NCBI GenBank assembly: GCA_029916745.1
Contig: JARXWK010000005.1
Span: 1 to 64,000, forward strand
Direction of reading: 5' to 3'
Source: Dysgonomonadaceae bacterium PH5-43
GTDB taxonomy: Bacteria > Bacteroidota > Bacteroidia > Bacteroidales > Azobacteroidaceae
Length of the DNA: 64,000 bases
Shown here: piece by piece, positions 20,940-55,862 of the stretch
How the letters are laid out: every line of letters starts with the position of its first letter
Position numbering within the stretch: the stretch's first letter is position 1
The notes under the pieces: model-generated
Seen by the model: only the letters and a program-made list of their open reading frames with translations
Told to the model about the DNA's origin: nothing
The model's database searches: none
Made by a program: the position numbers and the translations under genes

Positions 20940-21051
20940 TTGACATATTAAAAATTAATCTATACTTTTGCAAAGTAGTTTTTTCATAATAGTATTAGAT
21001 TTAAGGTTAACAAAGATTGAATTAGGGAGTTCGTGAGAATTCCCTTTTTTT
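20940..21051 (+). ncRNA. Candidate small RNA with its own promoter and terminator
   Basis: TTGA at 20940-20943 and a perfect -7 box TACTTTTG at 20963-20970, separated by 19 bp, form a good Bacteroidetes promoter. About 50 bases downstream of the expected start near 20977 a hairpin (21025-21032 with 21037-21044, GTGA loop, one G-U pair) is followed by seven T (21045-21051). The transcript would be about 75 nt and has no convincing ORF. It could instead be an attenuator, but no gene follows on this strand. Confidence 0.5.
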
Positions 21052-21091
21052 ATTTATGAGATTTTTTTACATAGACATAATCCATTTCATA

Positions 21092-21215
21092 CTTTGAAAC
21101 GATCCGTTTCACGGTTTGATATAATTCGTTTCACGGTTTGAAAACACTTGTTTCATATAGGTGAAACACTTTGTTTCATACTAATAAACTACCTGTTTCA
21201 TACGGGTGAAACGAC
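21092..21215. repeat. Palindromic repeat array 1 (GAAAC-N5-GTTTC, 22-23 bp period)
   Basis: Six units begin at 21095, 21117, 21139, 21162, 21185 and 21207, with spacings 22, 22, 23, 23 and 22. Most carry TGAAAC, five bases, then GTTTCA. The second unit is degenerate (TGATAT, then AATTC before GTTTC). Array 2 at 55706-55858 has the same early spacing and the same degenerate second unit. The array lies about 200 bp from the gene remnant at 21419. Confidence 0.75.
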
Positions 21216-21325: not shown

Positions 21326-21418
21326 CTAAAATGTGTACTTTTACCAATGATTAGTTTTGTTTGTTTAGGAGCCCTAACAACCTCCTTGCCTCTTATTACT
21401 AATATTGTTATATGATTT

Positions 21419-26448: not shown

Positions 26449-29400
26449 TTATTTTACAAATACTTTGTAAGCTGTGCCATCAATAATTACGATATAAGTA
26501 CCTTGAGCAAGAGACTTAGCGTAACGTGCTGTAGCATTAGCTTGATCTATTGATAATCCAGAAGTTGAGATTACTTGAATGTTTTTGCTTCCTTCGAAAG
26601 TTACTTCAAGCATACCATCTACTGCATTGATTGTAATACCGTTAGCAATAGCGTCTATACTGTTTAGTATGTCAACTGTAATTGTATAAACCTGAACTTT
26701 TCCATTTTGAGCAGTTACAGTAACCTTAAGTTCTTTAACACCACCTTCTTCAGGTACTCCAACAGCAGTAGCGCCTTCTACAGTAGCAGCAGGATTAGTA
26801 GGAGTTGCAGTTATTATAACACGTTTTGTTCCCTTAGGTATATCATTACACTTGTAATCTAATACTTCAGGATTAAACTCTGGAGTTAATGTTCCAATAT
26901 TAAGTTTCAACAATGACAATGAAGCATCATCACTTGGTATAATAACATTAATTTTATAGCTAGCTACATTATTTTTATTCTTTACAGTAACAGAGAATGC
27001 ATTGTCTCCACTTACAAGATTTTCTAATAATCCACCACCTATTACGGTTGCATTAGGATCGTTAGCAGTAATAGTTAATGTAACTGAATTTCCTGTAGTA
27101 ACAGTTACGATGTAATCGTAAATAGAACCTTCTCCACCTTCTACAACAGTACCATTATCTGCTGTAATAGAAGCGATAGTAGCATCAGCAAATTCGTTGA
27201 ATACTAATCTTGAACCACCATCAGTAATACCATAAGTACCTATGTAATTATCAACAGACGAACCTCCAATAGGATTAAATCCAGAAGTTGCAGCCATTGA
27301 TGCTTCTGAGATACCAAATAAACCATCCATACCAAATACTATTCTGAAGTTAGAAGCTGTAGTTGCTGTATCGCTAACACAGAATCCTTTTTCGTATGTC
27401 AAAGAACCTGTACTTGTTGAAGTAAATGCACTATCAGTATAAATTACAAGGTGATCAGGATAGTCTTTAGATACTATATTATAAAGACCTTCCTCTTCAG
27501 CAGCTGAAATCTTGAATAACTGATTAGCTCCAGCTACAACGTCTTTGTTGGCAGCTTTGAAAGCACCATTGTCATCAAGAGCAACAACTAAACCGTTAGC
27601 TGCATTATTATTTCTGTTAAACTGAATGTAATACCAGTATTCATTAGTATCATCACTTAATTTAGGGAATGTTGATTCAGGAGCATCTTCTTGAGCAATA
27701 AATTTAATAGCATTACCTGCATCATTCTTAACTCCGTAAGATGTATATAGGTAATTATTATTTGTTTTATTCATATAAGAACCTGAAGTTCCAATAGCAC
27801 TAGCAAATAATTGCCAGCAATCAGCAGTTGAATGTTCTACTGCATCTATTCCAGAGAAAGGAGAAGGTGTAGTTGCTGTAATAAATGTATTAGCAGAAGC
27901 ACCTTCCTCTATAGCATCTGTAGTATAAGAAAGGAAATTATTATTCTTGCTAACAAACATATATTGATTTGAGAATGGAGACTCGTAAACTTTCCATAAC
28001 AAATCGTCAGAATCTGTTAGGTAAGTATTTTCAATTGAATTGTTAGCACCTGCGTCTTTAATATAAGCGTTACCTCTTACATTGTAGATATAGTACCAAT
28101 ATTCTGCTCCACCTGCGCTTTGTTCTGAGCACTTAAATGGAAGCTCTGGAAGTTCAGCACCTGTAGCTGTAATTTCGATTACTTTATCTGCTTCTGCATT
28201 TTTAGTTGTTAAAGTAAGAGTAGCTGTATAGTCTCTCAACTCTGTTGGAGTGATAAGTATACGTAGTCCACCTCCTGCATTTTCACCAGCAGTAGCGTCC
28301 CAATTAGTTGGTATTACATTAAATTGTGTAGCATCAGCACCTGTTACATCGTAAGTAATACCTTCTGCAAGAGCTATACCACTAACATTCAAATCCAAGA
28401 TTTTCATCTTACCTTGTGTAACATTACCAAAAGTAATAGCATCTTTGTCTGTAATAATTCTTGGGCGACCTAAACCTTCTCCCTTAAGAGTAGTAGTTGC
28501 TGTATAATCGCCAGAAGTGATTGTAAGAGTTGCTTCGTATACTTTTTCTTCTGTTGGTTTGAATACGATAGAAACATCATCACCTGTTGCTACTTCTTCT
28601 GCATTTTGGATTTCAAAAGCAGCAGCATCTTCACCTGTAATTGTTGCAGTGAAAGTTGCATCTGCAGCTAAGTTAACATCTAATATCGCAACTGTTTGAG
28701 GATCTGACTGAACTAAATTTAGAGCTAAAGTAGCGAAGTCAAGTTCGTCAGCAGTATAAAGAGCCGAGTGAGCAGGAGTAAATGTAACGGCTGCACCGTC
28801 TCCAGTTGGAGCACCCCAAGTTCCAAGACAATCTTTATAATCTCCACTATTTTTATGGTCTAAGTGAGTATCTCCTGAAATAATTACAGCAAATCCCGTA
28901 GCGCCACTCAAACTTGTATGAGTATTAGATCTTAATTCATAAGTACTATTAGCAGTTGGCTCGCTTTTCACAGTAGCTGCATCTCCATCTCCAACAAGAG
29001 GAATAAGGTATCCACCATCTAAAGTTTGGAGATAATATTTAGTTACACCATCAACATCAACTGGAGTAAGTTTCCAAATTTGTCTTTCTTGAATAGTTCT
29101 GTCTATTGCGATACATTTAGCAGCATTACCTACAACATCTTGAGTTAATGTTTTACCTGCACCAGCTCTATGCCAGTTTACATAATACCAAGTATCTAAA
29201 CTTGTTGTTGGATCGATAGGAAGAGCTGCGCAAGTTCCTGTAATATTAACTATCACTGTTTCACCTTCATACTCAACAGTTATTGTAGCTTTAGAATCTT
29301 TATTTGCAACAGTTGGAACATAAGTTACTTTCACACCATAATCATCTTCTACAAATGTAAAATCTGCATCACCAGCAGTAGTTATTGTAGTAGCATCAGT

Positions 29401-30732
29401 ATTTTTAAATATTACAGATTTAGTAGCTGTTTCGCCTTGTTTTACACTTCCAAAGTCAACATCTTTATTTGGCAAGTTTGCAAACTCAATAAACTCGAAT
29501 TGAGAGTTAACACCTTTACCCCAAGTTGCAGTTTCGAAGATAACCGAGTATCCCCAACCACTATTTCCTTGGTGGAAATAAGGAGAACTTGCTGTAAGAG
29601 GAGTCGCTGCTTGGAATATAGCACGTCCATTAGGAGTTGCTGGTTCAGATAAAATCCAACCTGTATTTGGTGTATCAGCTAAAGCTGCAACATCTTTATT
29701 TTTAGCAACCCATTTCCAAGCTGAAAGATATTGATCATAATATTTATTAACGAAAGCATAGTTTCCGTCTGCGTCCATTTCTGCTCTCCATAGTTGTTTT
29801 TCTACATCTCCTGTTGGTAAAGCTTTACCAAAAACTCTATTTATAACATTTTCTGGATCTGTAGCATCTTCATCTGCTGTCATTGTTAAACCTACACGAA
29901 CATCACCTCCTAATACTTGAATAAAGTACCAAGGACCTTCGTTATCTTTAGATAATTTAGGTAAAGCAGGATTAGCCGAAGTTAATGTAGCAATTTCGTC
30001 AGCTGTTAATGTATTGTTAAACAATGCTATTTGAGAAACATTAAATCTTCCGTATTCATTATCTCCATGATTATCTCCTAAAAGATATAAAAGTCCATCA
30101 GGAATAATCCATTGATTAGCATCAGTAACTCCACCGTAATAAACAACAGTACCATCTTCGTGAGCTACATAAATGTTAATCTTATTTGAAGCTGCTGTTA
30201 AATCAATATTTAGAATAATTCTGTTCCAATCGCTTGGCAACAAAGCATTTTCCTTATATTTGCCACAACCAACACCATTTACACGTCCTGAAGCTCCATC
30301 GCTAAAAGACACAAAGAAATTACCATCTCCTTTCGATTTTGTATATAAAATCGAGCTTAGATTTTGTCCAGTACCCTTATTTGCATCCATTTTAAGGTCG
30401 TACATAACAGCATACTTTTCTACTTTGTTCGATCCTTCTGTTGTTTCTGTAAGCCCGTGTGTTAAAGCAAACCCTGAAGCTACTTTAGCACCAACGTCTA
30501 AACGCATAGTACCTACACCATCAACTTTTTGCCAATAAGTTAATTCTTTATTTTGAATTGTAAGAGCCATAGACTCTCCACCTACAGTAGCAACCGTATC
30601 GGTTTCTGCTGTCTTAAATTCCCACAAACCTGCCAAAGAAGAAACCTTGGTGGGGGAATTAAAATTTGTAAACTGTGCGAATGCTCCTGTATACAGAAAT
30701 ACTGCACATACTAATAAGAAAAGCTTTCTCAT
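26449..30732 (-). CDS. Giant secreted multi-domain surface protein with LamG, ricin-like, Ig-like and cadherin-like domains
   Basis: 1427 residues with a signal peptide (1-19). A LamG/concanavalin-like domain (about 25-255) is followed by four ricin-like modules at about 267-418, 515-653, 878-1014 and 1032-1182. Between them are Ig-like sheets opening with DFGSVKQGE (near 426) and ITFGNVTQG (near 766), which resemble DUF1573/choice-of-anchor repeats, plus another near 664-753. Two cadherin-like beta-sandwich domains (about 1190-1265 and 1272-1355) precede a sorting-type C-terminus (1360-1427). No enzyme motif is seen, so it is probably a binding or adhesive surface protein. It is transcribed alone, with a promoter box at 30794 and a terminator at 26393. 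Confidence 0.75.
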   Translation of the reverse strand: MRKLFLLVCAVFLYTGAFAQFTNFNSPTKVSSLAGLWEFKTAETDTVATVGGESMALTIQNKELTYWQKVDGVGTMRLDVGAKVASGFALTHGLTETTEGSNKVEKYAVMYDLKMDANKGTGQNLSSILYTKSKGDGNFFVSFSDGASGRVNGVGCGKYKENALLPSDWNRIILNIDLTAASNKINIYVAHEDGTVVYYGGVTDANQWIIPDGLLYLLGDNHGDNEYGRFNVSQIALFNNTLTADEIATLTSANPALPKLSKDNEGPWYFIQVLGGDVRVGLTMTADEDATDPENVINRVFGKALPTGDVEKQLWRAEMDADGNYAFVNKYYDQYLSAWKWVAKNKDVAALADTPNTGWILSEPATPNGRAIFQAATPLTASSPYFHQGNSGWGYSVIFETATWGKGVNSQFEFIEFANLPNKDVDFGSVKQGETATKSVIFKNTDATTITTAGDADFTFVEDDYGVKVTYVPTVANKDSKATITVEYEGETVIVNITGTCAALPIDPTTSLDTWYYVNWHRAGAGKTLTQDVVGNAAKCIAIDRTIQERQIWKLTPVDVDGVTKYYLQTLDGGYLIPLVGDGDAATVKSEPTANSTYELRSNTHTSLSGATGFAVIISGDTHLDHKNSGDYKDCLGTWGAPTGDGAAVTFTPAHSALYTADELDFATLALNLVQSDPQTVAILDVNLAADATFTATITGEDAAAFEIQNAEEVATGDDVSIVFKPTEEKVYEATLTITSGDYTATTTLKGEGLGRPRIITDKDAITFGNVTQGKMKILDLNVSGIALAEGITYDVTGADATQFNVIPTNWDATAGENAGGGLRILITPTELRDYTATLTLTTKNAEADKVIEITATGAELPELPFKCSEQSAGGAEYWYYIYNVRGNAYIKDAGANNSIENTYLTDSDDLLWKVYESPFSNQYMFVSKNNNFLSYTTDAIEEGASANTFITATTPSPFSGIDAVEHSTADCWQLFASAIGTSGSYMNKTNNNYLYTSYGVKNDAGNAIKFIAQEDAPESTFPKLSDDTNEYWYYIQFNRNNNAANGLVVALDDNGAFKAANKDVVAGANQLFKISAAEEEGLYNIVSKDYPDHLVIYTDSAFTSTSTGSLTYEKGFCVSDTATTASNFRIVFGMDGLFGISEASMAATSGFNPIGGSSVDNYIGTYGITDGGSRLVFNEFADATIASITADNGTVVEGGEGSIYDYIVTVTTGNSVTLTITANDPNATVIGGGLLENLVSGDNAFSVTVKNKNNVASYKINVIIPSDDASLSLLKLNIGTLTPEFNPEVLDYKCNDIPKGTKRVIITATPTNPAATVEGATAVGVPEEGGVKELKVTVTAQNGKVQVYTITVDILNSIDAIANGITINAVDGMLEVTFEGSKNIQVISTSGLSIDQANATARYAKSLAQGTYIVIIDGTAYKVFVK

Positions 30733-30801: not shown

Positions 30802-30888
30802 CGATTTTTTTTTAATCCAAAGCATTTTTATTCTTTTTTATACAAAGAAAAAAGGAAAATTGATTTTTTTAACAGTAACATAAGGCTT

Positions 30889-31694
30889 AACTGTCATCGT
30901 AGACAACGCTTCGCTCACCTCTCGCTTTATCTCTGGAAACGCGGCACGCCACGTCTCTACTGTGCATTGCGATTGGCTTCGCTTTGCGCTAACTTTTAGT
31001 TTTTAACTCTATCCCCGTAGGCAACGCTTCGCTCGCCGTACGGCTATGGAATTTTTACCCTTTGGGTAACCCTAACTTTTATCTTTTAGTTTTTAACTGC
31101 GAGCTTGCGAGCTTGTCGCTTTGCGCCAACTCTTAGTTCTTCACTCTTAGTTCTTAGTTCAAAAATGCAAAGTCTCACTTAGGGGCTTCTCTCTACTAAG
31201 AGACCCCTGCTCTCTCTTAGTAGATAGGCGAGGTGTCTCTACTAAGAAAGGCGGGGTGCTTTAAGGATAAAGACGATACCGTTCTACTAAGAGCTACATC
31301 GGGTCTCTACTAAGAAACAGCTCGCCTATCTACTAAGAACGACGAGGGGTATCTACTGAGAGAGACAAGGGGTATGTAGTAACAAACAGCTCACCTATCT
31401 ACTAAGAAAGGAAAGGTGTCTCTACTAATAGCGATAAGGGTGTTCTACTAATAGCAACGAAGTGCTTCGCAAGAGAGATAGAGCCGTCCATTTGCCCAGT
31501 CGCTAACTTTTACGCTATTCTCAGAGAGTTAAGTAATTACGGATAGTTGCCTATTGATGCGGTTTGCTTACTCTCTTGCCTTCTCTCTTGAATTAAACAA
31601 AGGGTCGATAATATCAAAATAATAGAGAAAAGAGAAGTATTGTAAAAATAAGTAAGTTGAAAAAATGTCAAGAATTTTGGTGAAATAGAAAAAG
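30889..31694. repeat. Long non-coding interspersed repeat, copy A
   Basis: About 800 bp without a credible gene. It closely matches the reverse complement of 48047-48772, over CCCGTAGGCAACGCTTCGCT, the GCGCAAAGCG block, the CTCTTAGTTCTT words, GCCGTCCATTTG, and the AT-rich end that reaches within 14 bp of the mnmD stop. The middle (about 31185-31460) holds roughly ten copies of CTACTAAGA or its complement every 20-35 bp. Some blocks are in a different order from copy B, so the element has been reshuffled. Confidence 0.85.
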
Positions 31695-31707
31695 GGAAAG
31701 ATAAAGT

Positions 31708-32364
31708 TTAGTTTTTTTGCGCCATAAGTATTTCTCTTTTCCCTGGAGGACCAGGTAGGCGACTAACAACAAAGCCAGCCGACTGCATTCGCCTGCGAAT
31801 TTCTCCTTTTGCACAATATGTGGATAAGACTCCATCAGTATTCATAGAGAGAAATATTTTGTTAAACAAATCTTCGCTCCATACTTCCGATTGTTTATCA
31901 GGAGCAAAAGCATCGTAATAAACAACGTCGTAGGTGCCGAGAGAGTAATCGTAATCGTTAAAATCGGTATGTACTTTATGAATAATTCTATCTTCAGTAA
32001 TATTAACAGGGGTATTCCATTCGGCAGTATGAATTTTTTCGAATAGTTCTTTGTCGCTATCTGAATAGTTAAGCGAGGATATTATCTCTTTCGTTAGGGG
32101 GTATTTCTCTAAGGTTGTGTAGTGTAGTTTTATATTACGCTTTGCCGCTTCCATAAAAGTCAGCAAAGCGTTTAATCCTGTTCCAAAACCCATTTCAAGC
32201 ACACGTATTTCGTCCTTTTTGCACTTATTAAAGGCTGTATTTATATACACGTGTAGAGATTCTTGCACTGCTCCGTTTACCGAATGATAGTGTTCGTCCA
32301 TATCTGGAAGGTACAACGTATGCGAGCCATCAGATGTTTTTTGTATAACAATAGGCGATTGCAT
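31708..32364 (-). CDS. mnmD: tRNA 5-methylaminomethyl-2-thiouridine methyltransferase
   Basis: 218 residues. The Rossmann methyltransferase core has the SAM-binding motif EMGFGTGLNAL (57-67). A YYDAFAPDKQSEVWS segment and LSTYCAKGEIRRRMQSAGF near the end are hallmarks of MnmD/MnmC methyltransferases. It methylates the wobble uridine of certain tRNAs. The oxidase half present in the fused MnmC of other bacteria is absent, as usual in Bacteroidetes. Its start immediately follows the thioesterase stop at 32365, so the two are likely co-transcribed with cysS. Confidence 0.9.
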   Translation of the reverse strand: MQSPIVIQKTSDGSHTLYLPDMDEHYHSVNGAVQESLHVYINTAFNKCKKDEIRVLEMGFGTGLNALLTFMEAAKRNIKLHYTTLEKYPLTKEIISSLNYSDSDKELFEKIHTAEWNTPVNITEDRIIHKVHTDFNDYDYSLGTYDVVYYDAFAPDKQSEVWSEDLFNKIFLSMNTDGVLSTYCAKGEIRRRMQSAGFVVSRLPGPPGKREILMAQKN

Positions 32365-41481: not shown

Positions 41482-41489
41482 TACCTTTG
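41482..41489 (+). promoter_or_regulatory. -7 box driving the cobalamin riboswitch operon
   Basis: TACCTTTG, matching TAnnTTTG, lies just before the riboswitch, so transcription should start near 41496. Confidence 0.55.
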
Positions 41490-41494
41490 CAGCC

Positions 41495-41685
41495 ATAAAG
41501 GTTCATACCTCTAAATTCTTAGAGATGGATTAAAAGGGAATCAGGTGAAAATCCTGAACAGTCCCGCTGCTGTAAACTCATAAAAGAGTTCAACATCTAC
41601 TGCCACTGATAGGTGTGCGTTGCACATATAAAACTGTCGGGAAGGCGTTGAACTTATGGAGTAAGTCAGAAGACCTGCCTTTATT
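41495..41685 (+). promoter_or_regulatory. Cobalamin (vitamin B12) riboswitch
   Basis: The leader of the btuB operon shows conserved cobalamin elements in order: a GGGAATCAGGTGAAAATCC-type core, CAGTCCCGCTGCTGTAA, a GCCACTG box, and the B12 box AGTCAGAAGACCTGCC near 41663-41680. In this class, bound adenosylcobalamin hides the ribosome site or stops transcription. No T-tailed terminator is visible before btuB, so control of translation is likelier. Confidence 0.95.
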
Positions 41686-41733
41686 TATATATTTTCAATC
41701 GTTCTCGTGGAAAAGAACATGAAATACTAAAAG

Positions 41734-43722
41734 ATGAACACAAGGATAAAATTTGCACTTACACTAATTTGTGTAGCTTGTTTTGCATATAACAATATAT
41801 ATGCTCAACAAGATTCGATTAAAACACATCAGCTAAAAACAGTTGAAGTGAAAGCTCTTGTTCGTTCTAATTCTAACCTTTCCACTTCGCCCGAACAAAC
41901 AATTACTAAAAGTGCTTTTACGAAGATAAATGCTTTTCAAGTTTCTGATGCTTTGAAATTTTTATCGGGAGTACAAATAAAAGACTATGGGGGCATTGGA
42001 GGCTTAAAAACTGTTTCACTCCGAAATATGGGAGCTAAATACACTGCTGTTGCTTACGATGGCATACCTATTACTAACTATATGACCGGACAAGTTGACG
42101 TTGGACGTTTCTCTTTAGACAATGTAGAAATGTTACGTGTTAATATAGGAGAAGCCGACAACATATTTTTACCAGCACGGCTTCAGGCTTTAGGCGGAAG
42201 TTTAGATATTATTACTCGCCCTTCTAATTTAAGCGATGAAAACAAAACCAAATTGGCAGCTTCATTCAAAACCGGCTCTTGGGGATTAATTAATCCTTCA
42301 ATATTTGCAAGAGTACCCATACACGAAAACTTCATCTTTGATGGTTCTTTTGAATATCTAATTAGCGATGGGGATTACCCATACAAACAAACTTACGGGC
42401 TTGGGTCTAATGCCCAAACAGTATCTCGCAACAGAGTAAACTCCGACATTGAAACATTTAAAGGAGAAATAAATCTATCCGGAGTCTTAAACAATGGAGG
42501 AGAGTTATCATCTAAGATTCATTATTACAATTCGGACAGAGGAATACCTGGACCTTCTTTTTATTACAACGAAAACAATACGGGAGAGAGAGTAAAAGAC
42601 GAGAACACTTTTGCTCAAATAGGCTATAAACAATCTCTCAATCACAAATGGAAGTTTCAAGCTAATGCGAAGTATGATATTAGCAACACCGATTACAACA
42701 ACCTACAAACTCTAAAGAAAGACAGATACGAGCAAACTGAGGCTTATGCTAATGCTATATTATTATACCGAACAACCGATAATTTGTCTTTTTCTTTATC
42801 TAACGATGTTAGTTATGGCACATTCAATAGCTACGATGTTGAAGATGCTAAGCAAACTTCATTACAAACTTCGTTGTCGGGCAAATACAGAACTTCAAGA
42901 TTTACAGCTACAGCAAGTTTACTAAATCATTATAATAACAACTCAAAACAAGTCAATTCTACTTTCAATAAAAAATCCAACCATATATCTCCTTATCTTG
43001 GCGTATCTGTCAGACCACTCAAAGATAGAGCTTTAAGAGTTAGAGCCTTCTATAAGAATGCATATCGCCTACCTACGTTCGGAGATTTATACTATGCCGA
43101 TGTAGCCAGAAACCTAAAAGCAGAGAATGCTCATCAGTTTAACATTGGCTTTACAACAGTTCGCTCTTCTGGAATACTATTTCCCTACTTCTCTTTTTCT
43201 ATCGATGCTTATTATAATAAGATAGATAATAAGATTGTAATCGAGCCTCGACAAAGTCAGTTCAAAGCATCGGTACGTAACTTGGGAAATGTAGATATTA
43301 AAGGGCTCGACTTAAACTTAGAATTTCACATAGCTGTAAGTAGCAACGTTACTGCTGAAGTAAGTAGCAGCTATACGTTTCAAGACGTAAAAGAGAATAA
43401 AGAAGGGCGAAAATTAATCTTAGCTTATACTCCCAAACATTCGGGTTCTACCTATCTCTCTTTAAGAATGCCTTGGTTTAATTTCAATTATAATATACTA
43501 TTCAGTGGCAAGCGTTATTACAATCAAGAAGCTGAGCCCGAATTTAAGCTCGACGCTTATTCTGAACACGGAGTTTCATTAAACAAACTTATAAAATACA
43601 AAGGCTATAGCTTAAATCTATCTGCAGAATGTTTAAATATATACAACAAACAATATGAAGTAGTACGCTCTTACCCTATGCCGGGAAGATCGTTCCGTTT
43701 CGGAATTAAGTTTATTCACTAA
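41734..43722 (+). CDS. btuB: TonB-dependent vitamin B12 receptor
   Basis: 662 residues with a signal peptide (1-24). A plug domain (about 50-165, with SDALKFLSGVQIKDYGG) is followed by a beta-barrel ending in an aromatic strand (RFGIKFIH). As an outer-membrane active transporter it would move cobalamin into the periplasm using TonB energy. The substrate is supported by the cobalamin riboswitch directly upstream and by the BtuG-type and BtuF-type genes that follow. The barrel sequence alone would not show B12 as the ligand. Confidence 0.92.
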   Translation: MNTRIKFALTLICVACFAYNNIYAQQDSIKTHQLKTVEVKALVRSNSNLSTSPEQTITKSAFTKINAFQVSDALKFLSGVQIKDYGGIGGLKTVSLRNMGAKYTAVAYDGIPITNYMTGQVDVGRFSLDNVEMLRVNIGEADNIFLPARLQALGGSLDIITRPSNLSDENKTKLAASFKTGSWGLINPSIFARVPIHENFIFDGSFEYLISDGDYPYKQTYGLGSNAQTVSRNRVNSDIETFKGEINLSGVLNNGGELSSKIHYYNSDRGIPGPSFYYNENNTGERVKDENTFAQIGYKQSLNHKWKFQANAKYDISNTDYNNLQTLKKDRYEQTEAYANAILLYRTTDNLSFSLSNDVSYGTFNSYDVEDAKQTSLQTSLSGKYRTSRFTATASLLNHYNNNSKQVNSTFNKKSNHISPYLGVSVRPLKDRALRVRAFYKNAYRLPTFGDLYYADVARNLKAENAHQFNIGFTTVRSSGILFPYFSFSIDAYYNKIDNKIVIEPRQSQFKASVRNLGNVDIKGLDLNLEFHIAVSSNVTAEVSSSYTFQDVKENKEGRKLILAYTPKHSGSTYLSLRMPWFNFNYNILFSGKRYYNQEAEPEFKLDAYSEHGVSLNKLIKYKGYSLNLSAECLNIYNKQYEVVRSYPMPGRSFRFGIKFIH

Positions 43723-43737
43723 TTAAATTATATCAAT

Positions 43738-44826
43738 ATGAAAAATTTATCTCATTTACTATTTGCTTCAATATGTTTATTAGTAGCAAGTTTAGGTTTC
43801 ACCAGTTGCGAAGACGACAATGGAGGTAACGGAGGAAAAAACGGTAACAAACAAGGAGTTTTTATTCTAAATCAAGGAGGCTGGGGAAGCAATGATGCTG
43901 GAATCAGTTTTTACTCTCCAAAAGACAGCATTATGACAAGCGACATTTTCGAGGGTCAACTTGGAGACAATGCTCAAGATATGCTACTTTATGGTGGTAA
44001 ATTATACATATCTCTTCACGGTTCTAAGACAATTGCCGTAATCAATGCTTACACCTACGATATTATAGAACAAATAAGCACAAACTTAGAAGAAGGTGTA
44101 TTCTCTCCTCGTTTTTTTGCAAGCTACGAAAACAAAGTTTATGTAACCGCTCAAAACGTAGACGCCTCTGAAGGATATGTTTGGCAAATAGACACAACCT
44201 CGTTAAAAATTGAACAAAAAGCAAAAGTCGGTATTAATCCAGAAGGCATAGCTTATTACAATAATAAACTTTATGTTGCCAACTCGGGAGATTACAATGT
44301 GGCTTACGAAAACACTCTATCAATAGTAGACATTACAACTTTCACAGAAACAGAAAAAGTAACTATTGGATTAAACCCAAAAATCGTTAAGACTGATGGC
44401 AATGGTAATCTTTATTTAATGTATCTCGGCGATTACGATCTAACTCCTGGTGGTTTCCAGATTTTCAATACTTTTACTAAAGAGGTTGACTTCGACTACA
44501 ACGAAAGACCTATTGGTAATTTTGCAGCCACAAACGACTATATATATTTCTATGGAGTATATTACGACCCTATTACTTATGCTCCTATGTGCGATGGAGT
44601 ATTTTCGTTAGATATTAAAACAGGCATAGTCGGCACTCCCGTTATTCCTTCAGAGAAAATAGAAGGTACACCTTACGGAATAGGAATTAACCCCTACAGC
44701 AAAGATATTTATCTATCTACTTATTACCCTACCGAAAGGGGTAAGGTGCATATCTTTGACACCAAGGGTAATCTGAAAACAAAAGAAACCGCAGGTATGT
44801 ATCCTTATAAATTTATTTTTCGTTAA
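43738..44826 (+). CDS. btuG: Surface B12-binding lipoprotein (BtuG-like beta-propeller)
   Basis: 362 residues. A lipobox LGFTSCEDD (C24) is followed by a glycine/asparagine-rich linker (about 28-37), typical of surface-exposed lipoproteins. The rest is a seven-bladed propeller-like series (YGGKLYISLHGS, YENKVYVTAQN, YNNKLYVANSG). BtuG proteins of Bacteroides bind B12 very tightly at the cell surface and cap BtuB. The fit rests on order, length and repeats. The gene lies 15 bp after btuB, and its stop overlaps the next start. Confidence 0.88.
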   Translation: MKNLSHLLFASICLLVASLGFTSCEDDNGGNGGKNGNKQGVFILNQGGWGSNDAGISFYSPKDSIMTSDIFEGQLGDNAQDMLLYGGKLYISLHGSKTIAVINAYTYDIIEQISTNLEEGVFSPRFFASYENKVYVTAQNVDASEGYVWQIDTTSLKIEQKAKVGINPEGIAYYNNKLYVANSGDYNVAYENTLSIVDITTFTETEKVTIGLNPKIVKTDGNGNLYLMYLGDYDLTPGGFQIFNTFTKEVDFDYNERPIGNFAATNDYIYFYGVYYDPITYAPMCDGVFSLDIKTGIVGTPVIPSEKIEGTPYGIGINPYSKDIYLSTYYPTERGKVHIFDTKGNLKTKETAGMYPYKFIFR

Positions 44827-45965
44827 TGAGAACCTCAATAGGTACAATTATAAATGTTATGTTATGCTTAGTACTGTTCGCCTCTTGCAATCAAAGAGGC
44901 AACAGTACTCATAATATTCTGAAATCAAATACCGACAGCATATATTATGCAAAAGGTTTTAATATTGAACAATACGATAGTTGCAAAATAATTAATCTTC
45001 TTAACCCTTGGAAACAAGAACAAGTATTGCAAACGTATATTCTTTGCCCTAAATCAAAACCACTACCAAATAATCTTCCTAATGGAACTGTAATTCGCAC
45101 TCCATTAAACAACACTGTAAGTTTCACATCTGTTACTTGCGGATTTTTTGACGAATTAGATATTCTAAGTACCCTTATAGGTGTAGCCGAACCTCAATAC
45201 ATTGATATTAATTATGTAAAAGAAGGTATTAAAAAAGGAAATATAAAAGATGTAGGTATGGCTTCCAATCCTAATATAGAAACTCTTATGCTTATCGAAC
45301 CTGAGGCTATATTCACTAATCCTATAAACGATTCTGGAGTTAGTGCACTTAATAAAGTAAACAGCACCATTATTAACTGTTTCGAGTATATGGAAACAAA
45401 TCCATTGGGACAAGCAGAGTGGATACGTTTCTTTGGTTTATTGTTTGAAAAGGAATCTTTGGCCGATTCTCTATTCTTTAACACGGTAAACAACTATAAT
45501 AAATTAAAAGCCTTAATACCAGATTTTGAAAATCGACCTACTGTATTTGCCGAACTTAAATATGGCGACTTCTGGTATATGCCTGGAGGCAAAAGCTATA
45601 TGGCTAATCTTTTTGCCGACGCAGGAGCTGACTACATACTTAAAGATAGTGAAAGTTCGGGGTCTACATCTTTCTCTTTTGAAACCGTATTAGACAAAGC
45701 CGAGAATGCCGACTTCTGGTTGTTTAAGCACTACAACAATTACGATATGACATATCAGCAGTTAGCTTCAGACTACTCAAACTATACTTTATTCAAAGCG
45801 TATAAAAATAAAAATATTTATGCTTGTAACACTCTTAAAAGAGCTAATTATTATATAGAATTACCTCTTCACCCCGATTGGATACTCGAAGATCTTATTT
45901 ACATCTTTCACCCCGAATTGTTGCCTAACTATACCACACGATACTACATTAAATTAAAAGAATAA
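44826..45965 (+). CDS. Periplasmic cobalamin-binding lipoprotein (BtuF-like)
   Basis: 379 residues with a lipobox (LVLFASCNQ, C21). The domain matches class III substrate-binding proteins of the BtuF/FecB type: two lobes with segments such as SVTCGFFDELDIL, IEPEAIF, and a late AGADYILKD. It would hand cobalamin to an ABC importer in the inner membrane. The importer genes (btuC, btuD) are not present after it in this window. Translation is coupled to btuG by a 1-bp overlap. Confidence 0.85.
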   Translation: MRTSIGTIINVMLCLVLFASCNQRGNSTHNILKSNTDSIYYAKGFNIEQYDSCKIINLLNPWKQEQVLQTYILCPKSKPLPNNLPNGTVIRTPLNNTVSFTSVTCGFFDELDILSTLIGVAEPQYIDINYVKEGIKKGNIKDVGMASNPNIETLMLIEPEAIFTNPINDSGVSALNKVNSTIINCFEYMETNPLGQAEWIRFFGLLFEKESLADSLFFNTVNNYNKLKALIPDFENRPTVFAELKYGDFWYMPGGKSYMANLFADAGADYILKDSESSGSTSFSFETVLDKAENADFWLFKHYNNYDMTYQQLASDYSNYTLFKAYKNKNIYACNTLKRANYYIELPLHPDWILEDLIYIFHPELLPNYTTRYYIKLKE

Positions 45966-46687: not shown

Positions 46688-47989
46688 TTATTTCGTCTTT
46701 TCGTTTAATATCTCTCGCACTTCATCTGCCGAAGGATTCACCTTTAATATAGTACCATCTGTATCTATCAAAAAAGTAGCTCCTCCCGAATTACCCACTC
46801 CATACTTATGCCAAATTTCATTTTTGTCGTTTAACTCCAATAAGTTAAGCCAAGTATAACCATCTCTCTTTATGGCATTCTCGCCATCTTCTTTTCTGCG
46901 TTCACGAGCAACTCCTACAACTGTAAAACCTTTATCTTTGAAATCGTTATAAACAGCTATCATTTCTTTTGATTTTCTTCGGCAAGGACCACACCACGAA
47001 GCCCACAAATCTAACAACGCTACTTTATTAGCTATTTCTTTTGACAAGGTATAATCATTCCCATCGAAGCCTACACAAGAAAAATCAATAAATTTATTTC
47101 CTTCTTTAATATCTTTAGAACTTATTAATTGAGATATTCTTTTTGTTATTGAGTGATTAGGATATTTTTGTTTGTACACATTATTAAAAGTCTCAATCAA
47201 TTTGTCTTCTTTATCAGAAAAAGACAAGTCGTTTCTCTCTCTTGCCGATTTGAAAGCTTTAAGCAAATAGAATGTTTGGCATAAACCAAAAACGGAATTG
47301 TTTTCAATTAAATAATCTGCTTGCCATTTTATTCGATTATTATGACTTTGCATTAATTCATTTTGTAGTGAAATACATTCGTCGGTATAGTAATTTCCAT
47401 TCAAAGAAGCCATATCATTTCTCAAATCATTCATTTTCTGCAAAAACTCTTCATTGTCCCAATCATTTTCATATTGTTTTTCAATTTCCGACTTACGTTT
47501 ATAAATTGCGTGAGCTTGTGGAGTAAGCCCTTCATTTGGTAATAATTCTTGCTGGCGAGACAGTGCTTTCAAGCGAAACAGTTTTTCACAATTTTCTTCA
47601 AACAAACTGTATTCTTTGTTCAATCTGCCTGTACCTTTAATTACATTGTTAGAAAAAGCGAAATCTTTAGGGTAGAGTTCAAAATTTACCGTACCATTTT
47701 CACTCATAAAAAAGATTGGAGTCCAACTTCCATCAAGTATTTCTTGCTCGAACGTAAGAGCATACATCTCTTCTTCTTCGCAAATCAATTCATATTCAAA
47801 ACTATTATTTACAACAGGAATACGTATCGCCTCTACAACTCTCAAATCACTATCTTGAATAGATAGTAACAGCGTTTCGTTCTTTGGACGATCGATAGTT
47901 TTTCCCAAAAGACGACAAGTAATCTTATCTTGTCCAAAAGAATTTGTAAGCAACAGAATAAACAACGAAAAGCAAATTATTTTTTTCAT
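46688..47989 (-). CDS. TlpA-like periplasmic thioredoxin with an N-terminal DUF4369 domain
   Basis: 433 residues from ATG at 47989, which gives a clean signal peptide (an in-frame ATG two codons earlier exists). The N-terminal beta domain resembles DUF4369. A helical middle part links to a thioredoxin fold with active site WCGPC in DLWASWCGPCRRKS. Such proteins reduce or exchange disulfides of exported proteins, often in cytochrome maturation or stress response. The specific partner is unknown. A -7 box lies at 48013-48020. Confidence 0.85.
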   Translation of the reverse strand: MKKIICFSLFILLLTNSFGQDKITCRLLGKTIDRPKNETLLLSIQDSDLRVVEAIRIPVVNNSFEYELICEEEEMYALTFEQEILDGSWTPIFFMSENGTVNFELYPKDFAFSNNVIKGTGRLNKEYSLFEENCEKLFRLKALSRQQELLPNEGLTPQAHAIYKRKSEIEKQYENDWDNEEFLQKMNDLRNDMASLNGNYYTDECISLQNELMQSHNNRIKWQADYLIENNSVFGLCQTFYLLKAFKSARERNDLSFSDKEDKLIETFNNVYKQKYPNHSITKRISQLISSKDIKEGNKFIDFSCVGFDGNDYTLSKEIANKVALLDLWASWCGPCRRKSKEMIAVYNDFKDKGFTVVGVARERRKEDGENAIKRDGYTWLNLLELNDKNEIWHKYGVGNSGGATFLIDTDGTILKVNPSADEVREILNEKTK

Positions 47990-48012
47990 AAACAAACATA
48001 TTAAATTTTCAA

Positions 48013-48046: not shown

Positions 48047-48772
48047 CATTTTTCTATTTCACCTAAATTCTCAACATTTTATCTACTTACTTATTTTTAC
48101 AAGACTTCTCTTTTTTCTATTATTTTGATATTATAGACCCTTTGCGTCATTTAAGAGAGGAGGCAAGATAGTTAGTAAATTACCCCCAATAGGCAACTAT
48201 CTGTAATCCCTTAACTCTCGGAGAGGAACGTAAAAATTCGCGACTGGACAAATGGACGGCTACATCTCTCTTACGAAGCACTTCGCTGCTCTTAATAGAG
48301 CTCTCTCTCCGCTTCTTAGGAGAACACCCTCGTCGCTCTTAGTAGATGGGCGAGCAGGTTGTTACTATATACCCCTTGTCTCTCTCAGTAGATACCCCTC
48401 GTCGTTCTTAGTAGATAGGCGAGCTGTTTCTTAGTAGAGACCCGATGTCGCTCTTAGTATAAACGCCTAATCTCTCTTAGTAGAACCACCCCATCGTTCT
48501 CGGTAGAGAGACCCCGCCGTTCTACTAAGAGACACAAGGGGTCTCTACTAAGAGAGACGACCCTAAGTGAAGCTTTGCATTTTTTGAACTAAGAACTAAG
48601 AGTAAAGAACTAAGAGTTGGCGCAAAGCGAAGCCAATCGCAATGCACAGTAGAGACTGACGTGCCGCGTCTCCAGAGATAAGGCGAGAGGCGAGCAAACT
48701 CGCAGTTAAAAGTTAAAAGTTAGCCGTACGGCGAGCGAAGCGTTGCCTACGGGGACAGGGTGAAGATGACTC
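48047..48772. repeat. Long non-coding interspersed repeat, copy B (inverted relative to copy A)
   Basis: About 725 bp in inverted orientation to 30889-31694. Long blocks match nearly base for base, including the CTACTAAGA-rich centre (about 48290-48560), GCCGTCCATTTG, the GCGCAAAGCG block and CCCGTAGGCAACGC. No credible gene is present, since short frames here are interrupted and have repeat-driven composition. It occupies the gap between the divergent TlpA-like and PBP4 genes. Confidence 0.85.
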
Positions 48773-55644: not shown

Positions 55645-55705
55645 ATTATTCTTATTTCAGTGTAAAGATATAAATTATTTATTACTAAATACTTTCTTCT
55701 CGGCT

Positions 55706-55858
55706 GTTTCAAGCTTTGAAACTACTCGTTTCTCACTTTGATATAATTCGTTTCTCGGCTTGAAACTATTTGTTTCACTTAACTGAAACTACTTGTTTCA
55801 CCTAACTGAAACAACTCGTTTCAACCTAATGAAACAACCTGTTTCACCCGTGTGAAAC
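55706..55858. repeat. Palindromic repeat array 2 (GAAAC-N5-GTTTC, 22-23 bp period)
   Basis: Seven units begin at 55717, 55739, 55761, 55784, 55807, 55830 and 55853, with spacings 22, 22, 23, 23, 23 and 23. A partial half-site precedes them. Each full unit is TGAAAC, five bases, GTTTC, then six or seven bases. The second unit is TGATATAATTCGTTTC, as in array 1. It ends just before the DUF6078 stop codon. Confidence 0.8.
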
Positions 55859-55862
55859 AAAT

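Follow-up and report, generated by a model that had tools for sequence, protein, structure and literature searches.

The question raised by this locus is whether two inverted repeat copies around the B12 genes of Dysgonomonadaceae bacterium PH5-43 act as a switch for the DNA between them, or whether they belong to a system that extends along the chromosome. The window, which is the whole stretch of 64,000 nucleotides analyzed here, contains both copies, and the initial annotation proposed that recombination between them would flip about 16 kb holding the genes from mnmD to a TlpA-like gene, including the B12 operon. The existence of the inverted pair was confirmed: positions 31169-31692 (+) and 48050-48576 (-) are 84% identical over the aligned core. 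When window positions 30880-31720 were compared with the genome itself by BLAST, the minus-strand match covered 48049-48630 (~580 bp, 84% identity, E 5e-172), and further blocks of the second copy were matched at 48599-48698 (90%) and 48721-48764 (93%). The longest exact match between the two copies is 80 bp (31296-31375 = 48369-48448). Between the copies, at 41482-41696 (+), there is a cobalamin riboswitch (103.6 bits) ahead of the genes at 41734-45965, which is consistent with a B12 locus.

Both copies contain a left flank, a head, an array of 23-bp units, and a tail. In copy 1 (+), the left flank (30889..31168) is a mosaic of the palindrome GCGGCACG, TTAGTTC-type heptamers, and CGCTTTGCGC. 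It is followed by a head at 31169..31190, AAAGTCTCACTTAGGGGCTTCT, which is a variant of the family consensus AAAGCTTCACTTAGGGTC, by the array with TCTACTAAGA / TCTTAGTAGA dyads at 31192..31460, and by a conserved class-1 tail of ~232 nt at 31461..31692 (profile E 7e-73). The core of this copy is 524 nt long; the commonest core length in the family is ~502 nt. In copy 2 (-), the left flank occupies 48577..48772, the head 48555..48576, the array of 23-bp units 48283..48554, and the class-1 tail 48050..48282, which ends next to where the TlpA-like gene (46688-47995, -) starts. The annotation had also described blocks that are partly reordered between the copies, and this holds as well, confined to the short dispersed repeats of the left flanks and not the conserved core. 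In copy 1, TCTCGCTTTATCTCTGG..GCGGCACG..ATTGGCTTCGCTTTGCGC stands before CCCCGTAGGCAACGCTTCGCTCGCCGTACGGCT, and this order is swapped in copy 2, whose left flank is otherwise made of similar short repeats. The left flanks of both copies are a patchwork of other short dispersed repeats, and genus relatives are matched by short left-flank pieces of copy 1, not by the core.

The pair is not a special enclosure of the B12 locus, as had been supposed, since its members are two adjacent copies of a family of 85, here called family A, whose core recurs throughout the genome (2.54 Mb, 46 contigs). A first search of the genome, with window positions 30880-31720, scored 40 candidate places. The motif TCTACTAAGA occurs 486 times in the genome (253 + 233) versus 11 times (6 + 5) for the reversed control, and the head CTTCACTTAGGG has 81 exact matches versus 0 for the control. 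The 85 listed copies are these heads without a chance match of the head 12-mer in coding sequence (C2:23371) and without a second head 149 bp from another (C8:48376), plus six copies whose head is variant or absent. Each copy runs from a fixed left end, AAAGCTTCACTTAGGG, through 23-bp units in a fixed order to a tail. One unit consists of TCTACTAAGA and 13 nt, there are roughly 7-11 units per copy, and the tails are of at least two alternative types. Among the 81 copies analyzed, 34 have the conserved 232-nt class-1 tail, as do both window copies, and in the remaining 47 the sequence trails off into a class-2 tail, which is short, or becomes degenerate. Core lengths in class 1 fall near 455, 478, 501, and 524 nt, in steps of one 23-nt unit. 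The dyad arms (TCT..AGA) are mostly at least 90% conserved in units 1-3 and 5-7, and the inner 4 nt of the units are found in both orientations (ACTA in 53 and TAGT in 22 of 81 copies for unit 1); these inner-base flips could arise via hairpin or cruciform intermediates.

Some copies of family A are damaged or have unusual surroundings. One of them (L066, C8:40767) has a head and a tail with the array deleted, and is the source of the only A-A gap below 10 kb. At both ends of contig C37, two arrays (L062 and L117) are each interrupted at CCTGAGTTTCGTTTAAG, which resembles an insertion-sequence end, and the contig breaks there. Long GATA tetranucleotide runs lie directly beyond two class-2 copies (L087 and L112).

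A second family, B, was first seen in stretches free of A. It consists of dyads of the form GTTTCA-N5/6-TGAAAC, with ~7 dyads per array and a 22-23-bp period, and is unrelated to A in sequence. We located ~45 B arrays. GTTTCA-N6-TGAAAC has 109 sites in this genome versus 1 for the control, and 0-3 sites per relative. The unit order is fixed as in A, according to an alignment restricted to the 29 arrays with at least 4 recovered units, and an A module lies within 900 bp of five of these 29 arrays. One B array (L190) is directly followed by a complete class-1 A tail. The window contains a B array with GTTTCA-N-TGAAAC dyads and a 22-23-bp period at 21084..21212 (+), with an A-type class-2 tail lacking an A array downstream at 21376..21414 (+, profile E 2e-4), and a B array of the GTTAGG subtype at 55705..55859 (-). 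Positions 20975-21054 (+) match the Rfam family of Bacteroidetes FopS paralogous sRNAs marginally (56.1 bits, cut-off 56), and the terminator-like end of this match lies immediately before the B array at 21084. A third array family, with 22-bp dyads ATTTTC-nnACGnnC-GAAAAT, has 3 copies in 720 kb (L143:8275-8450, L153:10118-10251, and L291:4136-4246), one of them ~200 bp away from an A array. A fourth family may be represented by short arrays of AAACTCACTGTGTTTTTC-like units between genes (L142:11789-11938 and L160:9939-10023).

The A arrays are intergenic, with 79 of 81 copies outside ORFs of at least 80 aa, and the tail class is tied to the orientation of the neighboring genes. Neighbors were identified by a simple rule based on ORFs, in place of a gene finder. 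For the 69 of 81 copies with both neighbors assigned, class-1 tails were found in 12 divergent and 4 convergent gaps, and class-2 tails in 17 convergent and 5 divergent gaps (Fisher P 0.0026). No replication-strand bias was seen, as the mean flank GC skew in element orientation is 0.006 +/- 0.010 (n = 81).

Both families are evenly spaced. With thresholds of 5, 8, and 12 kb picked after seeing the data, A-A gaps below 12 kb number 2 of 52 versus 21.6 expected at random (none of 4000 draws gave so few), and a defective copy is involved in each of these two gaps. B-B gaps below 12 kb number 2 of 23 versus 7.6 expected (P 0.004), where the B arrays on contigs C27 and C36 were left out of the gap counts. 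The two families also avoid each other: 3 of 43 B arrays lie within 5 kb of an A copy versus 11.9 expected when B is circularly shifted per contig (P 0.0002), and joint A and B gaps below 8 kb number 7 of 95 versus 36.8 expected. Most joint gaps (76 of 95) measure 8-25 kb. A null limited to gene-like sites agrees for A (2 gaps of 5-12 kb versus 11.1 expected). The minimum A gap is 13.06 kb in the same orientation and 13.10 kb in the opposite orientation, excluding five truncated or degenerate copies. The spacing does not look like a detection artifact, since profile searches find no missed copies: in 366 kb of A-dense contiguous sequence they returned the 22 known A copies, no other A, and one B array, and in 354 kb of A-free gaps only one A fragment. 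In 448 kb, no over-dispersion is seen for the other dispersed short repeats, with only 4-8 gaps each, and in that 448 kb alone the A and B gaps below 12 kb are borderline (2 of 11 versus 4.8, P 0.054). Large zones without arrays exist, some of at least 50 kb, such as 87-146 kb of contig C1 with neither A nor B, so the spacing is a minimum distance rather than a strict period. In two cases, an A and a B array are only ~200 bp apart. The A-B exclusion (~8 kb) is looser than the A-A exclusion (~13 kb), which fits a within-family cause.

The arrays are absent from the relatives searched. Among 38 genus genomes, the A core was found in 1, this genome itself, and in 0 of 37 relatives; family B was not found in the same 37 relatives. 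Exact A patterns gave 0 matches in GTDB genome contigs, in a search that is blind to diverged copies and may leave out this genome itself or very near ones. A motif-independent search for tandem arrays outside ORFs gave 34 arrays in 720 kb of this genome, picked around A-rich contigs and A-free gaps and not at random, versus 1 in 638 kb of relatives; 33 of the 34 consist of 22-23-bp dyads and belong to family A, B, or C. According to cysteinyl-tRNA synthetase, Candidatus Symbiothrix sp. and Dysgonamonadaceae are among the nearest named relatives, all of them Bacteroidales MAGs, which come from termite guts. The function of the arrays cannot be essential in the genus, as the relatives live without them.

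The even placement of A and B, about every 16,000 bases, suggests a role in chromosome organization rather than a B12 switch. The explanation we lean to, tentatively, is that the window repeats are members of chromosome-wide, exchangeable intergenic arrays (A ~85, B ~45) that act as BIME-like binding or barrier sites bounding ~16-kb domains. Each array, with its 7-11 dyad-symmetric units of 22-23 bp, would form a high-avidity platform for a nucleoid or topology protein. A shared placement rule, presumably under selection, would keep about one array per 16 kb between genes, and the arrays may then function as barriers to supercoiling or as anchors, much as proposed for the BIMEs of E. coli.

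The main rival, and a possibility to be taken seriously, is that the arrays are mobile repeats of a non-autonomous, MITE/BOX-like kind, dispersed in the distant past by some transposase with transposition immunity, where a copy repels insertions nearby and selection purged insertions in genes and promoters. The dispersal of the arrays implies mobility in the past, and the family is multicopy and species-specific. TnsB and MuA are known to bind end sites of 22 bp, and the A-A gaps below 12 kb (2 found, 21.6 expected) show the exclusion zone around existing copies that is typical of Tn7 or Mu. This within-family exclusion of ~13 kb, regardless of orientation, is of the order of the Mu cis-immunity range, which is strongest at ~5 kb and decays between 5 and 25 kb (PMC7350765). 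Adjacent A copies resemble each other slightly more than other pairs do (P 0.017 overall, 0.03 within class), and BOX and RUP repeats are likewise enriched between convergent genes (PMC3049150). However, the unrelated family B avoids A too, which is not predicted by Tn7/Mu-type immunity. Terminal inverted repeats and target duplications were not detected: in 29 class-1 copies, the terminal-repeat score was 13.0 versus 12.1 for shuffled sequences, and flank k-mers were shared no more often than between mispaired copies, with the caveat that short target duplications could be missed because the element ends are fuzzy. A MITE was rejected on these two grounds. Near-identical copies are also absent, the best pair reaching 96% identity over the aligned first 219 nt, none of the copies read is an autonomous one with an internal gene, and the genome has no Y1 transposase (Y1_Tnp/RAYT, PF01797, 0 matches, with the control positive in 5 of 14 genomes). 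A phage or plasmid origin was rejected as well, since no match was found among phages or plasmids; in viral contigs, there was no B pattern and one match of the A pattern, a single chance-like pair. We consider it improbable that the arrays are instead transcribed elements acting as structured RNAs, terminators, or 3' UTR stabilizers, with class-2 tails as terminators and class-1 tails carrying upstream regulatory sequence. The tail class does track gene orientation, some class-2 ends look like a GGCAAGG..CCTTGCC hairpin followed by T-rich sequence, and the minus strand of one copy folds better than shuffles (z -2.40). However, the plus-strand fold has a z of -1.28, the consensus-fold covariation term is only -1.53 with both sides changed in 4 of 71 pairs, and the even spacing is left without explanation. 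RNA-level roles of the arrays are weakly supported, and an RNA element was provisionally rejected because the folds are weak and the arrays in the window match no Rfam family.

Recombination between copies could also be considered, either as a flip of the B12 segment or as a cause of the missing close pairs. The flip of 16 kb with the B12 genes, as first proposed, is scarcely credible. The two copies are in opposite orientation, have mosaic left flanks, and share the 80-bp exact match, and recombination between them is possible in principle, but nothing singles the pair out: it is two of 85 copies, and 19 of 42 adjacent A pairs are also in opposite orientation, about chance level. Gene order in relatives, which had been suggested as a check, gave no support for a flip. 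The junctions predicted by an inversion, mnmD beside the S13 peptidase gene or the gene at 26449-30732 beside the gene at 46688-47995, were found in 0 of 20 stretches from 14 relatives (10 around mnmD and 10 around the S13 peptidase gene). The test is weak: with an MnmD identity of only 56-67%, these relatives are too remote to be decisive, and the junctions of the present arrangement are not conserved in them either. An inversion of the B12 segment was thus rejected, with no support in relatives and a pair that is not special. It is very unlikely that the lack of close pairs results from recombination that removes or flips the DNA lying between neighboring copies. Copies do share up to 80 bp of exact identity, but the exclusion is equal in the same and opposite orientations and reaches the non-homologous B arrays, and the other dispersed short repeats there, with only 4-8 gaps each, are not over-dispersed.

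We therefore favor domain arrays kept apart by a shared placement rule, as immunity alone leaves the avoidance by the unrelated family B without explanation. It is possible, though rather doubtful, that these exchangeable dyad arrays, of at least two unrelated types and placed one per ~16 kb, form a sequence-encoded ruler that sets loop or supercoil domains. If so, this would be a bacterial genome with domain boundaries written as dedicated, evenly placed elements. The barriers of bacterial topological domains are thought to be largely randomly placed, with identities still to be established, according to PMC6907758, and ~130 recognizable, evenly spaced arrays would offer a direct test bed for the identity of such barriers. 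If transposition immunity is the cause, the genome would record the immunity range in nature. Either way, a spacing rule across two unrelated families demands explanation.

Several known systems resemble these arrays in part. A CRISPR array was rejected, as the 13-nt segments at a given position are largely shared between copies (units 1-7, ~80 copies). In plasmid centromere arrays such as sopC of F, and in chromosomal parS and matS, a segregation or domain protein binds dyads that are arrayed or dispersed, as the dyads here are. The B half-site TGTTTCA/TGAAACA resembles parS half-sites; unlike parS, the B dyads have a spacer of 5-6 bp instead of 2, and there are ~130 arrays instead of a few. 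Canonical parS, GTTTCACGTGAAAC, has 0 matches in this genome and is absent from 36 of 37 relatives. Family B as a chromosomal parS of the TGTTTCACGTGAAACA type with a 2-bp centre was rejected, given the absence of the canonical site and the 5-6-bp spacers.

The closest likeness is to the REP/BIME and BOX elements. As in REP/BIME of gamma-proteobacteria, extragenic, high-copy, and species-specific palindromic units of short length are assembled into mosaic arrays. Binding of gyrase, IHF, or Pol I is characteristic of REP/BIME. BIME-2 binds gyrase (PMC2817692), and BIMEs are candidate supercoil barriers (PMC6907758). A REP/RAYT system was rejected because no Y1 transposase is present in the genome, and, unlike REP, the arrays lack a GTAG or CGTC head, as the REP super-families are named in the title of PMC3733652. 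Further differences from BIMEs are the 23-bp unit, the fixed order of the units, the presence of two array types unrelated to each other, and even spacing with mutual avoidance. The fixed ends and variable number of middle units, with 23-nt length steps and alternative tails, are like BOX of S. pneumoniae (boxA-boxBn-boxC), and in S. suis the same middle units of BOX occur with alternative end modules (PMC3049150). Unlike BOX, family A has 23-bp units, roughly 7-11 per copy, and no terminal inverted repeats or target duplications were detected. BOX, RUP, and SPRITE are often clustered together, as stated in PMC3049150, whereas families A and B avoid each other. In the literature searched, with subscription papers mostly outside its scope and sources available in part, we found no description of evenly spaced, mutually avoiding families of bacterial repeat arrays. 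The arrays are of a known kind, that of BIME and BOX, and what is new is their even spacing across two families.
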